Positions 3,122 through 15,639 of a DNA stretch of 22,060 nucleotides are shown here, in pieces; the stretch's first letter is position 1; every line of letters starts with the position of its first letter. This DNA is from a virus. The stretch spans positions 1-22,060 of the IMG/VR virus record IMGVR_UViG_3300023184_002552; one strand, given 5' to 3'. Both the position numbers and the translations under genes were made by a program. Below the pieces are notes generated by a model that saw only the letters and a list, made by a program, of their open reading frames with translations, had not been told where the DNA came from and did not search any database.

Positions 3122-3366
3122 TTCTTGCTCCACCCTTTGCTGAGATAGTTAAGTATCCGTTCTATACTTGACTGCATGGTTTGATATTTGCTCTGTAGGC
3201 TTTCAATTTGATCTTGTTGTCGTTCTACTAAGCGCAATAGTCTATCTACGGCCGCTGTCTGTTCACGTAATTTTTTATCTTGGCTAAGCAAATTTGGTCG
3301 AGGTGGTGCATTCGGGTCTACCGCTCGTTTCTTTTTCTGCTTGAATTGATTTGGGTTAAATGCCAT
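3118..3366 (-). CDS. Small basic coiled-coil protein, unknown function
   Basis: 82 residues. The N-terminus is basic and Pro-rich (NQFKQKKKRAVDPNAPPRP), and residues about 30-75 read as one coiled coil (AAVDRLLRLVERQQDQIESL and onward to the SSIERILNYL segment). The start overlaps the preceding gene by 11 bases, with AGAGGA upstream. No family was recognised. A basic tail plus a coiled coil would suit a nucleic-acid-binding adaptor, but that is only a guess from composition and location. Confidence 0.65.
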   Translation of the reverse strand: MAFNPNQFKQKKKRAVDPNAPPRPNLLSQDKKLREQTAAVDRLLRLVERQQDQIESLQSKYQTMQSSIERILNYLSKGWSKK

Positions 3367-3613
3367 CTTTATAGTCCTCTGAGAGCTTATATATAATTAT
3401 ACATTTTTCTACAGCTTCTGTCAATGCTGGATTCAAATTCCTTTTTGGATATATTTCATTCCACATGCGTTGATTAATCCGTTCTTTAGCGTTCAGATTC
3501 TGACCAATCATTACTCGTTCACTGTCGGGCGCACCAGCTTCTCGAGCGTAGATTGTATCTCCCCCGTCTGGGCTTTCGTATACGTAAGTTGCGCCCGGTT
3601 TTAACTTACCCAT
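3356..3613 (-). CDS. Conserved small phage protein, unknown function
   Basis: 85 residues, soluble. The N-terminal half looks like a short beta domain (GATYVYESPDGGDTIYAREA), and the C-terminal half is helical (NPALTEAVEKCIIIYKLSED). The ATG directly follows the stop of the small membrane protein gene. The shape fits a recurring hypothetical protein in T4-like phages of aquatic bacteria, but I cannot attach a function. Confidence 0.65.
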   Translation of the reverse strand: MGKLKPGATYVYESPDGGDTIYAREAGAPDSERVMIGQNLNAKERINQRMWNEIYPKRNLNPALTEAVEKCIIIYKLSEDYKDGI

Positions 3614-3778
3614 TTACCAATGCCTGATGACACCTGCTATGATAAACAGGTTAGTGACAATATAAAATAGGACTATCAAAGTTCGTATCAAGGCAATACG
3701 ATCTGCTTCGTCGTCTGTGCGGCCTTCTTTTTGTCCCAGGGCTTTAGCCCAAATACGCCAAATTTTATTCTTTACCAT
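3614..3778 (-). CDS. Small single-pass membrane protein
   Basis: 54 residues, starting MVKNKIWRIWAKALGQKEGR. One clear membrane helix covers about residues 31-51 (LIRTLIVLFYIVTNLFIIAG), preceded by a charged cytosolic-type segment with a DDEAD acidic patch and followed by a short tail IRHW. The start lies seven bases inside the previous gene and the stop is followed at once by the next ATG, so it is part of the operon and not spacer DNA. Similar tiny membrane proteins occur in T4-like phages of aquatic bacteria; the function is unknown. Confidence 0.7.
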   Translation of the reverse strand: MVKNKIWRIWAKALGQKEGRTDDEADRIALIRTLIVLFYIVTNLFIIAGVIRHW

Positions 3779-4272
3779 ATCTTTCCGTAGTCTACGACTT
3801 CGCTTTGTCGTGATATATCTTTAACAAAATAAGCACATAGTGGATGCTGACCTTCTGTAATAGGCACTGCTAACATCTGACCTGGACGCAGTTTTGGAAA
3901 ATACCATTTGACGTCTTGGTAGATATCTACGATCTCAATTGGATGGAATTCTGGTTTAAAGCTGTCCAACGGATTAAAGGTAAACACACTAAACCCACGA
4001 TCATTAATCGATGTTAACGGTATAACTTCTAAGTCACCGAAATCAGGTTCGCCGATCAACACCTGCCAGTCTACAGGCATCTTAACTAAGTTGCCGCCGA
4101 TATTTAATACCAATGCTGGACTATTAAATGATTCTAAAAATATCAATGGAATAAAGAAGTAGTCGGGATTCTTTGGATCGCTGTTGTCTAATATAGCGAA
4201 ACGCAGATCCTCAACTTCATCCGGAATCTCATTCATTTCATAGGCTTGGTTTTCTAATGTTAGTATATACAT
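3772..4272 (-). CDS. Conserved phage protein next to uvsW, unknown function
   Basis: 166 residues, beginning MYILTLENQAYEMNEIPDEV. The most conserved-looking stretches are DWQVLIGEPDFGDLEVIPLT (residues about 68-87), FSVFTFNPLDSFKPEFHPIE and a C-terminal VKDISRQSEVVDYGKIW. It looks like a compact beta-rich protein without membrane segments or a known catalytic signature. Proteins of this pattern sit beside uvsW in aquatic T4-like phages, as I recall, without a known role. The gap to uvsW is only three bases, so the two are surely co-transcribed. Confidence 0.65.
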   Translation of the reverse strand: MYILTLENQAYEMNEIPDEVEDLRFAILDNSDPKNPDYFFIPLIFLESFNSPALVLNIGGNLVKMPVDWQVLIGEPDFGDLEVIPLTSINDRGFSVFTFNPLDSFKPEFHPIEIVDIYQDVKWYFPKLRPGQMLAVPITEGQHPLCAYFVKDISRQSEVVDYGKIW

Positions 4273-4275
4273 ATC

Positions 4276-5733
4276 TTATTGCCAATCTGCCTTTTCAACG
4301 ACAAATGGGTAGTTCGCCTCCTTGTAAAATTGCTTTCTTTTTGTTAAGTGCCGTTTGGCAAACTTACATGTTGATGTTATGTCCCAGATTTGGACGAAAT
4401 CTTTGTCCTCAGCTTTTCTAATGCCTCGCCCAATTGACTGAATAACTCGAACAAATGATTTACCAGGCTCAACGAGAACAAGATTAAAAATACGAGGAAT
4501 GTTAATGCCAACAGCGGCAACACCATAAGTAGCGACAATAACTTTGTCATCCATTGTCGCAACGTCGTCATATTGTTCTTTTCTATCATCTGCTTTGGTT
4601 CCTCCTGAAACGAATACTGAATCTTTGATACGGTCTACCAGGGCTTTTCCTGGTGCCAGTCGATCAACTAATACCAAGGTATTACCTGTTTTACGAATCG
4701 TTTCTACCAGCTGTGCGATATAGTCTAAACGTCCGTCTGTTTCTAGCAAGTATCTGAGCTCGCTTTGATAATCTCGATATTCTACATGGTCAACAAGTTG
4801 TAGAACATTTACATGACAGTTTGCTAATACACCCTGCTCTTGTAATTCACTGGCACTTAGACGGCCAATAACGTCTCCTATTGAACACTTTAGGCTCATA
4901 AATTCGTAATCTTCTTTAGGTATTGTGCCAGTTAATCCCCAGCGAATAGGTATATGTGCCATTACCCCAGTTAGCAGTGTTTTAAGCGCATCTGCTTTGG
5001 CCATATGCACTTCATCAACCATAACGCAGACCACGTCCTGTAAAAACTCACCAATGGTAATGTCTACTTCGTGATTACGACTACCTTTTAATAGAATGTT
5101 TAGACTTTGCCAAGTGCAGATAGTATGTGTGCGACCAAACTCTTTACGATCTCCAAAGTAAACTCCAACGTCCAATCCCATGTTGATATAGTCTGCTTCT
5201 GTTTGTGTTACTAATGATTTGTTTGGAACGATAACGATAGTGCGCCCATGTGGCTCACAGCTATAACTTAGTGCAGCCGTGATCAAGGTTTTACCTGCGC
5301 CTGTAGCAACTTCTTGTAGGCATTGTGGATTGGCTAAGAACTTGTTGATAATTTCAATTTGATAGTCACGTAGAACAATTGGCTGTCCTGCCATTGGGTG
5401 TTTAGCAGGCCAGTTAATGTGACTGAATGTATTTTCGTTTACCTGCGCAAACTCATACTGTGTTTTATATTCACGGAAGTCTTCTACTTCTATGCTGTAA
5501 CCTTGACCATCTAAGTAGGTAATGATCTCAGGTAGTAAGTTGATATAAGTGCTACCACCTAGTTGGAAGAAAGCTACCTTACCGTCCCATCGACCCAACC
5601 GAACTGCTGGTAGGTAACGAGCGCCTGGGATTTCATATTTGAACTTATTGCTAAGTTCTTTGCGTTCATGCAAATCAAGGCCTTCTATCTTTACATTAAC
5701 TTCATCTTTGATCAGTAATCTGGCTACAGCCAT
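4276..5733 (-). CDS. uvsW: UvsW-type SF2 DNA helicase
   Basis: 485 residues, close to T4 UvsW (about 500). UvsW unwinds branched DNA, regresses forks, removes R-loops and drives the switch to recombination-dependent replication. The helicase motifs are in order: Q/I region with VATGAGKT (Walker A, 142-149), VMVDEVH (motif II, about 237-243), LTGT (motif III, 267-270), ATYGVAAVGINIP (motif V, 401-413) and QSIGRGIRK (motif VI, 432-440). The N-terminal 110 residues match the small DNA-binding domain of the family (GARYLPAVRLGRWDGKVAFF). The start shares one base (TAATG) with the HARP-like gene before it, so translation is likely coupled. Confidence 0.93.
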   Translation of the reverse strand: MAVARLLIKDEVNVKIEGLDLHERKELSNKFKYEIPGARYLPAVRLGRWDGKVAFFQLGGSTYINLLPEIITYLDGQGYSIEVEDFREYKTQYEFAQVNENTFSHINWPAKHPMAGQPIVLRDYQIEIINKFLANPQCLQEVATGAGKTLITAALSYSCEPHGRTIVIVPNKSLVTQTEADYINMGLDVGVYFGDRKEFGRTHTICTWQSLNILLKGSRNHEVDITIGEFLQDVVCVMVDEVHMAKADALKTLLTGVMAHIPIRWGLTGTIPKEDYEFMSLKCSIGDVIGRLSASELQEQGVLANCHVNVLQLVDHVEYRDYQSELRYLLETDGRLDYIAQLVETIRKTGNTLVLVDRLAPGKALVDRIKDSVFVSGGTKADDRKEQYDDVATMDDKVIVATYGVAAVGINIPRIFNLVLVEPGKSFVRVIQSIGRGIRKAEDKDFVQIWDITSTCKFAKRHLTKRKQFYKEANYPFVVEKADWQ

Positions 5734-6860
5734 TAGTTTTTATTCCTTAGTTTTGAATCTGTGAGATATATTATGCGCTCTGCTTTGTTGGTCCAGCTCA
5801 TCTTACGCCCACCAAACATCATTTCAAATGTTGACACTAACAAGGGCACAGGAAAATCCCAACTTGCAGGAATCTTCTGAGCATATACTACTTTAACACC
5901 ATATGGGTCATAATCGCTAGTCTTAGTCTTACCATTCCGGTCGAATCTCACGATGTCTTTTTCTGCAAATCTCGACAGATCCATATCTATCAATGTAGGA
6001 TTGTAAATGCAAATAGGATACCTATTTGTTTCTTCAGCATAGTCGAAGATCTTATTAATGTTTTCTTCCGTTGGGTCCATATTATGCGAATGGAACATGC
6101 TTAATATAGCAGTGTTAGTAGATAATCTTGGATCCATAAACACTTCGTTGCTACGTGTATAGCCTAAGATACCGCAGTGATCTACTAACTTAGTTATATT
6201 ATCTAATCCAAACCCACCTAAATGTTTATTTACGTAGTCTATCAGACTGTCTGGTGCATTGGTAATTTCATATCTATCAGCACGTTGGACTAATTCTATT
6301 TCAAAAGGTTGCTGTTCACAAGCAATAATTTTGTCAAATAGTTCTTGCACATCAGCGGTGATCTCAAATTGATTAGCTGTGCCCCAAGTCACTATCCAAT
6401 TAACATTGTATTCTGTTAAGCCTAAGGTCCATAATTTAGAGGTATGATTATACCCTGCTGACCCTTGGCTGGATTCCCTAAATTCTTGTATCTGCTTGAT
6501 CATAGTCTGATCGTAAGGGAATTTAACCTTGATCTGAGAATCTTCTAACCATATGGCTTTGGTCCTGTCAATCTGGCGCGGCGGTATGCGGAACTGGGGA
6601 TTTTCGATAGGTGTAACATCTACCCCTTGCTTGGCAAATTGCCTGCGGTATTTAAGTATTAACTTGCAGGCTAACTCACTTTGCTTATCGGTTAGGGCCG
6701 TGCCGAACATGGTGTTATTAGCCATGCTGTTGACTATCTGTATGTCATAGCGAGCCAGGCTAATGCGATTAGTATTCTGCGGCTGTAGCAAAGCCGATAA
6801 ACTGACTTCATATCCAGCTAAGTATTCAAGATAGTCTTCGACGTGTGGAAAGGTTAACAT
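5733..6860 (-). CDS. HARP-domain-like protein coupled to UvsW
   Basis: 375 residues. Residues about 110-156 look like a HARP module, the annealing-helicase domain of SMARCAL1: IKVKFPYDQTMIKQIQEF, a Ser/Gly loop, then YNHTSKLWTLGLTEYNVNWI. That is the pattern of a Pro-Tyr entry, a helix, and a K-x-W-x-(F/L) strand before an EYN helix. The rest has no helicase motifs, so it would need a separate motor, and UvsW follows with a one-base overlap. The assignment is by eye and could be convergent. Start choice: the ATG at 6860 is the only one before residue 46, and it lies exactly where transcription should begin, so the message appears leaderless. Confidence 0.65.
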   Translation of the reverse strand: MLTFPHVEDYLEYLAGYEVSLSALLQPQNTNRISLARYDIQIVNSMANNTMFGTALTDKQSELACKLILKYRRQFAKQGVDVTPIENPQFRIPPRQIDRTKAIWLEDSQIKVKFPYDQTMIKQIQEFRESSQGSAGYNHTSKLWTLGLTEYNVNWIVTWGTANQFEITADVQELFDKIIACEQQPFEIELVQRADRYEITNAPDSLIDYVNKHLGGFGLDNITKLVDHCGILGYTRSNEVFMDPRLSTNTAILSMFHSHNMDPTEENINKIFDYAEETNRYPICIYNPTLIDMDLSRFAEKDIVRFDRNGKTKTSDYDPYGVKVVYAQKIPASWDFPVPLLVSTFEMMFGGRKMSWTNKAERIIYLTDSKLRNKN

Positions 6861-6866
6861 ACTATT

Positions 6867-6895
6867 ATTATACCATTGTTAAAACTGATTGTCAA
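6867..6895 (-). promoter_or_regulatory. Consensus sigma70-type promoter, leaderless (P1)
   Basis: TTGACA (6895-6890), a 17-base spacer and TATAAT (6872-6867): a perfect consensus. Six bases separate the -10 box from the ATG at 6860, so the predicted first transcribed base is the A of that ATG. It drives the HARP-like/UvsW/mini-polymerase operon. The -35 box abuts the T-run of the terminator before it. Confidence 0.85.
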
Positions 6896-6896
6896 C

Positions 6897-6931
6897 TGAA
6901 AAAGAAGCCCAAATATTTCTATCTGGGCTTT
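6897..6931 (-). terminator. Rho-independent terminator after the membrane-protein operon
   Basis: A 7-base stem, AAGCCCA/TGGGCTT (arms at 6924-6930 and 6905-6911), with a 12-base loop, is followed on the minus strand by CTTTTTC. It ends transcription of the ATPase/small-membrane-protein operon just before promoter P1. Confidence 0.8.
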
Positions 6932-14733: not shown

Positions 14734-15051
14734 TTAAGGTAGTTTAGGTGCACCTAATGTGTCTAAAAGTGAATCTACTGCTGAATACCAATGTTCAGCA
14801 ATATTAACTCCGTAGAACACTAACCCGCGGGCAGTTTCACTGAACCCGCTTAGAATTATAATTACCATTATGACCCAAAATATAGTCCAAACGCTGACTT
14901 TGGTGTCAACTCCGTCATGGAATAATGGACGGTCTGCACCGTTGTTATACCATCTGTTTTGATGCAGTTCATTCAGCTGGCGTGGGGTGCTGGTATCATG
15001 ATTTGGGTTACCGTAAGGTCCCCAATTTGGGTCTTGGAATCTATCACTCAT
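14734..15051 (-). CDS. Single-pass membrane protein next to the hydrolase gene
   Basis: 105 residues from the ATG at 15051 (MSDRFQDPNWGPYGNPNHDT). One strong membrane segment covers about 52-70 (VSVWTIFWVIMVIIILSGF); the N-terminal 50 residues are polar and rich in Asn, Pro and Gly, and the C-terminal 35 form an amphipathic helix. It follows the SleB-type hydrolase directly, so a holin- or spanin-like lysis role is possible, though it matches no known holin by eye. The ATG is the predicted transcription start (promoter P6), so this is a second leaderless gene; no ribosome site precedes it. Confidence 0.65.
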   Translation of the reverse strand: MSDRFQDPNWGPYGNPNHDTSTPRQLNELHQNRWYNNGADRPLFHDGVDTKVSVWTIFWVIMVIIILSGFSETARGLVFYGVNIAEHWYSAVDSLLDTLGAPKLP

Positions 15052-15057
15052 GCATGT

Positions 15058-15086
15058 ATTATACACGAGTGATAGAAAAAAGTCAA
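15058..15086 (-). promoter_or_regulatory. Sigma70-type promoter, leaderless (P6)
   Basis: TTGACT (15086-15081), 17-base spacer, TATAAT (15063-15058). Six bases separate it from the ATG at 15051, exactly the geometry at P1. The -35 box begins one base after the stop of the hydrolase gene. Confidence 0.8.
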
Positions 15087-15087
15087 G

Positions 15088-15639
15088 TTATTTCTCTCGT
15101 TTGTAGAACACATGGTTACCAATTTTAGTAGCAACCTTGTGTGGCCAGCGTGGATTTACTTCTATGTCTGCGGCGTGGAACCACATGACGTTTTGATCAA
15201 TCTTAGCTACCTTTTCACCGTCGACTAAGACTTTCTTAGCGGCAATGTAGCTGGGATTGTTTTTACTGATAATTTTATTTTTGTTTATTCGGCTGTCACA
15301 CATCCACGAAAATTGACAGACCTTGTCACCTTCGATGGTTGTTGACTGAGACACTACCGCACATAAGTCATTTGGAAACAAGCCGCTACGGGCACGATTT
15401 ACAGTAACCTGTGCCACTGCCATCTGTCCTGCCATGGGTTCACTGCCTGCTTCATAAAATACATTACGAGCCAAGCAGGCAAGTTGTCGTGAAACTTTAG
15501 CCTCTTGTTGTTTGACTATCTTAAAGCCAAAATCTCTATCTTCGCTACCCATCGCTGTGGGCATCGTCGTTAGTGCTATAACCGTTGTGGACATTATTGT
15601 CCAGGTCAGTATTTTTTTGAAACGTGAGATCACGCTCAT
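15088..15639 (-). CDS. Secreted SleB-type cell-wall hydrolase
   Basis: 183 residues. The N-terminus is a signal or signal-anchor sequence (MSVISRFKKILTWTIMSTTV, then IALTTMPTAMG), with a positive start and a hydrophobic core at 10-30. The mature part has the SleB/CwlJ hydrolase pattern: LARNVFYEAGSEPMAGQMAV (56-75, with catalytic Glu E63), VTVNRARSG (78-86), LCAVVSQS (92-99) and CQFSWMCDSR (108-117). These enzymes cleave peptidoglycan and act in phage lysis or in cell entry. A signal-bearing lysin can be exported by the host and needs only a pinholin. AGGAGGG lies six bases before the ATG. Confidence 0.9.
   Translation of the reverse strand: MSVISRFKKILTWTIMSTTVIALTTMPTAMGSEDRDFGFKIVKQQEAKVSRQLACLARNVFYEAGSEPMAGQMAVAQVTVNRARSGLFPNDLCAVVSQSTTIEGDKVCQFSWMCDSRINKNKIISKNNPSYIAAKKVLVDGEKVAKIDQNVMWFHAADIEVNPRWPHKVATKIGNHVFYKREK

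Follow-up and report, generated by a model that had tools for sequence, protein, structure and literature searches.

The segment described here belongs to a 22,060-nt stretch of viral DNA (IMG/VR record IMGVR_UViG_3300023184_002552, positions 1 to 22,060), which as a whole is referred to as the window. Its minus strand carries an operon whose first gene codes for a conserved 375-aa protein and is followed by genes for a UvsW-type DNA helicase, by a third operon gene and by genes for other conserved phage proteins, one of them DNA-polymerase-like (Table 1). The designation as a large DNA-metabolism operon, used in the initial annotation, is fair given this content. The mention of T4-like phages in the same annotation fits less well, since the phage is not a close relative of T4. 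When UvsW alone was compared, the nearest proteins were those of the jumbo phages Phosso (55%) and Atu_ph07 and of the PA5oct group, and T4 was absent among the best 20; by this comparison the phage is a jumbo phage. One fragmentary relative occurred in a MAG labelled Proteobacteria, which is too weak for naming a host.

Table 1. Features of the UvsW operon junction and of the second predicted leaderless gene in the window
Feature	Coordinates	Strand	Remarks
-35 hexamer TTGACA	6890..6895	-	TTGACA, TTGACT, TTGCAA or TTGCAT among relatives
17-bp spacer	6873..6889	-	TGG before the -10 gives an extended -10, absent from relatives
-10 hexamer TATAAT	6867..6872	-	TATAAT or TATACT in most relatives
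6-nt discriminator AATAGT between -10 and ATG	6861..6866	-	97% mean conservation in close relatives; other letters, equal length in distant ones
Predicted +1, A of the ATG	6860..6860	-	7th base past the -10; T at -1, A at +1
ATG start codon	6860-6858	-	sequence reading
Intrinsic terminator hairpin and T-run	6905..6930	-	adjoins the promoter upstream; ends the previous transcription unit
First gene, predicted leaderless, conserved 375-aa protein	5733..6860	-	weak HARP/XPB/UvsW-N-like signal; sequence, domain and fold comparison
UvsW-type DNA helicase	4276..5733	-	one-base overlap of its ATG with the first gene's stop
Third operon gene, phrog_11279	3772..4272	-	phrog match
Second predicted leaderless promoter, TTGACT-17-TATAAT, near-perfect	15058..15086	-	6 nt before the ATG at 15051
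16-bp inverted repeat around the start	15040..15076	-	left arm 15076-15061 (promoter spacer, -10); right arm 15055-15040 (AUG, codons 2-4)
Second predicted leaderless gene, 105 aa, one hydrophobic segment	14734..15051	-	directly after the endolysin gene

Direct reading of minus-strand positions 6895-6858 gave TTGACA-17-TATAAT-AATAGT-ATG, and the perfect promoter followed by six bases and an ATG, as initially described, is thus borne out. The site displays the TTGACA-like and TATAAT-like hexamers, 16-18 bp apart, by which sigma-70-type promoters are defined. The window contains five perfect TTGACA-N15-19-TATAAT sites, each of them on the minus strand; shuffled sequences would lead one to expect 0.01. 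Four of them (3424-3396, 9135-9107, 9442-9414 and 9832-9804) are followed by leaders of about 30-56 nt, and the 6895 site is the sole leader-free perfect promoter of the window. In the minus-strand region 3366-3424, the perfect promoter is embedded in coding DNA, that of the upstream ORF (3356-3613). More than 30 loci (L017 and others) have kept promoters at the equivalent place, with a distance of 29 (or 23) nt to the following ATG.

A terminator hairpin with T-run was found at the equivalent position in nearly all relatives, and in several distant ones the T-run merges into the TTGAC of the -35. Just upstream of the 6930-6905 terminator, a 10-bp inverted repeat (CTATCACACT...AGTGTGATAG, 6973-6936 on the minus strand) forms a second hairpin in tandem. 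Rfam returned no matches in the window. With the predicted 5' end at 6860, the AUG would be mostly unpaired, but a clear difference from other genes was not seen, and an unusually open 5' end was rejected. Neither a conserved operator nor a conserved hairpin was accepted for this start, as the symmetry amounts to a 6-bp repeat that is absent from relatives.

An in-frame TAA lies within the -35/-10 spacer and therefore makes a start farther upstream impossible; the ATG at 6860 is the first possible in-frame start. No other plausible start had been recognized until residue 46. This is indeed the next ATG, but residue 24 is a TTG, so that the statement holds for ATG codons only. Residues 1-20 of the 375-aa protein (MLTYPHVEDYLEYLGGYEVG) and the ATG were conserved among relatives. 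Those reaching the N-terminus open with MLTYPHVEDYLEYL or similar at the same ATG, as observed in 38 viral contigs with a relative and in 80 loci from a wider profile search, two sets that overlap. In every relative carrying the promoter, the start codon was ATG. This conservation makes it very probable that translation truly starts at residue 1; starts at residue 24 (TTG) or 46 (ATG) were ruled out by the conserved N-terminus.

Sequence searches with the 375-aa protein yielded no named homologue in GenBank phages and none in the PDB. A fold search with a moderate model (pLDDT 79, pTM 0.50) gave weak XPB/HARP-like matches together with unnamed phage proteins. Likewise, the HARP-like Pfam signal was weak within the family (7 of 15 members, best E 0.1). 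The protein, whose gene adjoins that of UvsW, is perhaps a helicase accessory protein.

The initial annotation had proposed a leaderless message and suggested judging it by the distance from -10 to ATG in relatives. This distance was compared among 31 representatives clustered below 85% protein identity, the promoter being scanned freely within 60 nt upstream of the ATG. In these divergent representatives the best promoter lay 6 nt from the ATG (offset 6) in 25 cases and at offset 5 in one; four had none, and L041 displayed a poor one at 21 nt. Some of the representatives with the 6-nt spacing share as little as 34% protein identity with the window. Discriminators diverged at constant length (AATAGT, TGTTGC, ACAAAC, TGTCCT, GCTAAC, AGATTC). 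Mean column conservation in the 25 close representatives was highest in the discriminator (0.97) and the -10 (0.93); lower values were obtained for the -35 (0.73), the spacer (0.72) and third codon positions (0.74). From these alignments, the 6-nt spacing is not due to chance. Since many contigs are closely related, independent events are fewer than loci. The 375-aa gene is also carried, with a promoter 6 nt from its ATG, by the 355-kb contig IMGVR_UViG_3300017917_002374 (L157).

L041, a 33%-identical homologue, was devoid of such a promoter and had an ordinary GAGG Shine-Dalgarno (SD) sequence instead; the predicted leaderless state would therefore belong to this lineage and not to every homologue. 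L136 and L158 were likewise without such a promoter and L155 was the one at offset 5. As these four loci deviate, the design is not obligatory for the 375-aa gene.

No conserved SD was found upstream of the 375-aa gene in 25 representatives, and the energy of the duplex with the anti-SD was above 0 in 16 of them. By comparison, window genes located behind leadered promoters (before 9050, 9380 and 9770) displayed a clear AAGGAG of about -7 kcal/mol. SD-led initiation was rejected as the general mode because the SD is not conserved. In some relatives a GAAGG (-3.9 kcal/mol) stands some 12 nt ahead of the ATG and could act as a weak SD if transcription began upstream. The main translation might then come from longer upstream transcripts, through this weak SD or through coupling, the adjacent promoter being secondary. 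Besides the GAAGG of part of the relatives, the coupling of the 375-aa gene to an upstream gene in L035, L042 and L127 speaks for such an arrangement. It is nonetheless very unlikely in view of the terminator directly upstream in most loci, of the unconserved SD and of the fact that, in the coupled loci, the new first gene itself occupies the 6-nt position.

This last point provides the clearest test, one made by nature. L036 and L042 were identical at 594 of the 600 nt before the ATG, promoter included. The ATG at the predicted +1 belongs to the 375-aa gene in L036; in L042 and in the more distant L035 it opens an extra gene, which encodes about 295 aa. In both L042 and L035, the 375-aa gene comes after the extra gene with a 7-base overlap (ATGTTAA or ATGCTGA). 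The same extra gene was found in L127 behind TATAAT-ATAACA-ATG, i.e. at offset 6 again. Whichever gene stands first takes the ATG at six bases. A short repeat (AATAATATG-like) present at the two start codons may have facilitated the swap between L036 and L042.

The design extends beyond this operon. The pattern TTGN20TATAMTN6ATG matched 27 times in 39 related contigs and 0 times in the reversed control. Among 69 de-duplicated promoters, an ATG occurred at offset 6 in 13 cases, these including several orthologues and at least one chance match (an ATG followed by an immediate stop), against a mean of 1.4 for other offsets (about nine-fold; Poisson about 5e-9). Clustering of the downstream proteins indicated that about eight gene families share the design. 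The peak recurred in seven separate, larger contigs, among them one of 355 kb: with a duplicate contig excluded from the count, offset 6 was found for 12 of the 22 TTGAC promoters having an ATG within 2-12 nt. No site of this pattern at offset 6 was encountered in Phosso or Atu_ph07, and the four ATGs at offset 6 in PA5oct included no annotated gene start in the regions examined; support for the class is thus lacking from these named relatives. Judged from the counts in the related contigs, the offset-6 design is a class used by several first genes of the jumbo-phage clade.

A purely incidental spacing, due to genome compactness or common ancestry and meaningless for translation, appears extremely unlikely. 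AATAGT is indeed shared by descent in close relatives and the L036/L042 swap could have used the short repeat at the ATG, but the spacing persists with unrelated discriminators at identities as low as 34%, and it recurs among several genes that are not related. Moreover, leadered promoters of the same genomes have leaders of variable length, often with an SD.

Some promoters of this kind precede very short ORFs. At the promoter of an AAA-ATPase gene (L053 near 3394-3330; L059 near 7877-7810, minus strand), the offset-6 ATG begins a mini-ORF of 9 codons (MILRKQTNV or MILKKQTNV) that ends in a stop overlapping the following ATG; it is possibly a leaderless upstream ORF coupled to the AAA-ATPase gene. 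In L056 (11095-11034, minus strand), a mini-ORF MNNKETEIK with its ATG at offset 6 overlaps the start of the next ORF, of 65 aa.

Together, the exact spacing, the absence of a conserved SD, the ATG-for-ATG gene replacement and the clade-wide excess at offset 6 argue for the leaderless message initially proposed. We estimate at about 0.87 the probability that a host-type promoter is fixed so that the RNA starts at the A of the ATG or at most one or two bases from it, and that the first gene is translated independently of an SD. General promoter rules would place the exact 5' end at 6860. The RNA might also start slightly upstream or downstream of the A (slippage, leader of 1-3 nt) or at several positions and be nearly leaderless. 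This overlaps with the preferred reading, of which it is a shade, and is a possible though less favoured variant. Transcription in E. coli starts roughly 6-9 nt after the -10, and the offset 5 of L155 and the offset 7 seen in a few other genes point the same way. Against it, a pyrimidine precedes the offset-6 ATG in nearly all cases, like at ordinary start sites, placing pyrimidine -1 and A +1 at exactly the preferred distance.

In the leaderless reading, a host sigma-70-like RNA polymerase would start on, or within 1-2 bases of, the A of the ATG, and the mRNA would have no leader or at most one of 1-2 nt. By analogy with known leaderless mRNAs, we infer that a ribosome, probably 70S, would bind the 5'-terminal AUG directly, with no SD pairing involved. 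Downstream genes of the operon would be translated as in any polycistronic message, through overlaps or their own sites. In longer read-through RNA the AUG would be internal and lack an SD; the upstream terminator would prevent such RNA from extending into the operon. Several other first genes of the clade would be served by this design as well.

A second case was encountered in the window at the gene starting at 15051, separated by 36 nt from the endolysin gene (15088-15639). Relatives were found with a homologue as search query, and the promoter six bases from the ATG, with the endolysin gene upstream, was present in all 12 loci whose start is intact, window included. The product is a guessed lysis protein from its position; no family match supporting a lysis role was found for it. 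Its start is further distinguished by an inverted repeat. At starts of this type, the stretch from the start codon through codon 4 pairs, in a hairpin of 14-16 bp, with the spacer and -10 of the promoter; besides the window (15088-15040), the inverted repeat was recorded in L046, L048, L051, L061, L070-L074 and L076-L081. Three alleles of the right arm (Ser-Asp-Arg, Ser-Tyr-Arg and Asn-Asn-Arg) were accompanied by matching changes in the left arm. In nine distinct rows of related sequences, 96% of cells were paired and 10 cells had changed on both sides, a covariation reached in 0 of 500 shuffles; slid controls of the hairpin alignment were 18-53% paired.

In the predicted fold of read-through RNA, the AUG of the 15051 gene was fully paired, and RNA from the local promoter would be devoid of the left hairpin arm. 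According to this model, the hairpin would hide the AUG in read-through RNA; a dyad-symmetric DNA operator would explain the same data. In T4, the starts of e, soc, 49 and I-TevI are hidden in a helix of long transcripts, and RNA from a close promoter is devoid of the 5' arm (PMC3014915, PMC2988022). The 15051 gene would share the logic of e and soc, with a promoter inside the start-sequestering hairpin. Yet, the T4 transcripts keep an SD and come from gp55 late promoters, whereas the 15051 RNA would be leaderless and its promoter is sigma-70-like.

Leaderless mRNA is a well-established kind of message, with examples in lambda cI and phiYS40. Among phages it is most familiar from temperate repressors and the Thermus phage phiYS40, whose middle and late promoters reportedly have a -10-like element only. 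As a lytic large phage with leaderless messages, phiYS40 is the closest phage precedent; in contrast to it, both the -35 and the -10 are near consensus here, with a 17-bp spacing, and the genomes mix leaderless (as predicted) and SD-led genes. Middle and late mRNAs of this Thermus thermophilus phage are described as mostly leaderless, and its infection is reported to change initiation factors (PMC3594737). For the initial suggestion that a leaderless message might allow translation when initiation factors or ribosomes are altered, phiYS40 would be a precedent. For lambda cI, a model leaderless mRNA, the transcript from PRM starts at the AUG, and 70S ribosomes bind the 5' AUG of leaderless mRNAs directly (PMC9031893). 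That case concerns a single repressor gene of a temperate phage, while the present one concerns a DNA-metabolism operon and several other jumbo-phage genes. Leaderless 'TA-led' genes of Deinococcus-Thermus and actinobacteria, with a -10 directly before the ORF and no SD (PMC12340547, PMC3160421), are bacterial chromosomal genes, in contrast to the full promoters found here in a phage. The literature searched, which took in a minority of subscription journals, contained no mention of leaderless mRNAs for this group of jumbo phages. The distinct aspects are the full -35/-10 promoters, the predicted mix of leaderless and SD-led genes, the deep conservation of the spacing and the putatively start-hiding inverted repeat of the second gene.

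A broader proposal, made tentatively, is that of a defined leaderless class comprising the repair operon, the small membrane protein after the endolysin and others. Only RNA starting exactly at the AUG would be translatable, a terminator or a start-hiding hairpin would block read-through, and the class would be switched on together when infection alters translation (e.g. the IF2/IF3 balance), as was suggested for phiYS40.

In such genomes, gene finders that depend on an SD or presuppose a leader can place starts wrongly. The hairpin case would be a simple way of tying translation to the local promoter only. More generally, a strongly constrained and perfect promoter, predicted to be leaderless, would drive a DNA-repair operon across a broad clade of uncultured jumbo phages, beside SD-led genes. 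As both kinds of genes would thus occur in the same genomes, the question of why the phage uses both modes is directly testable.
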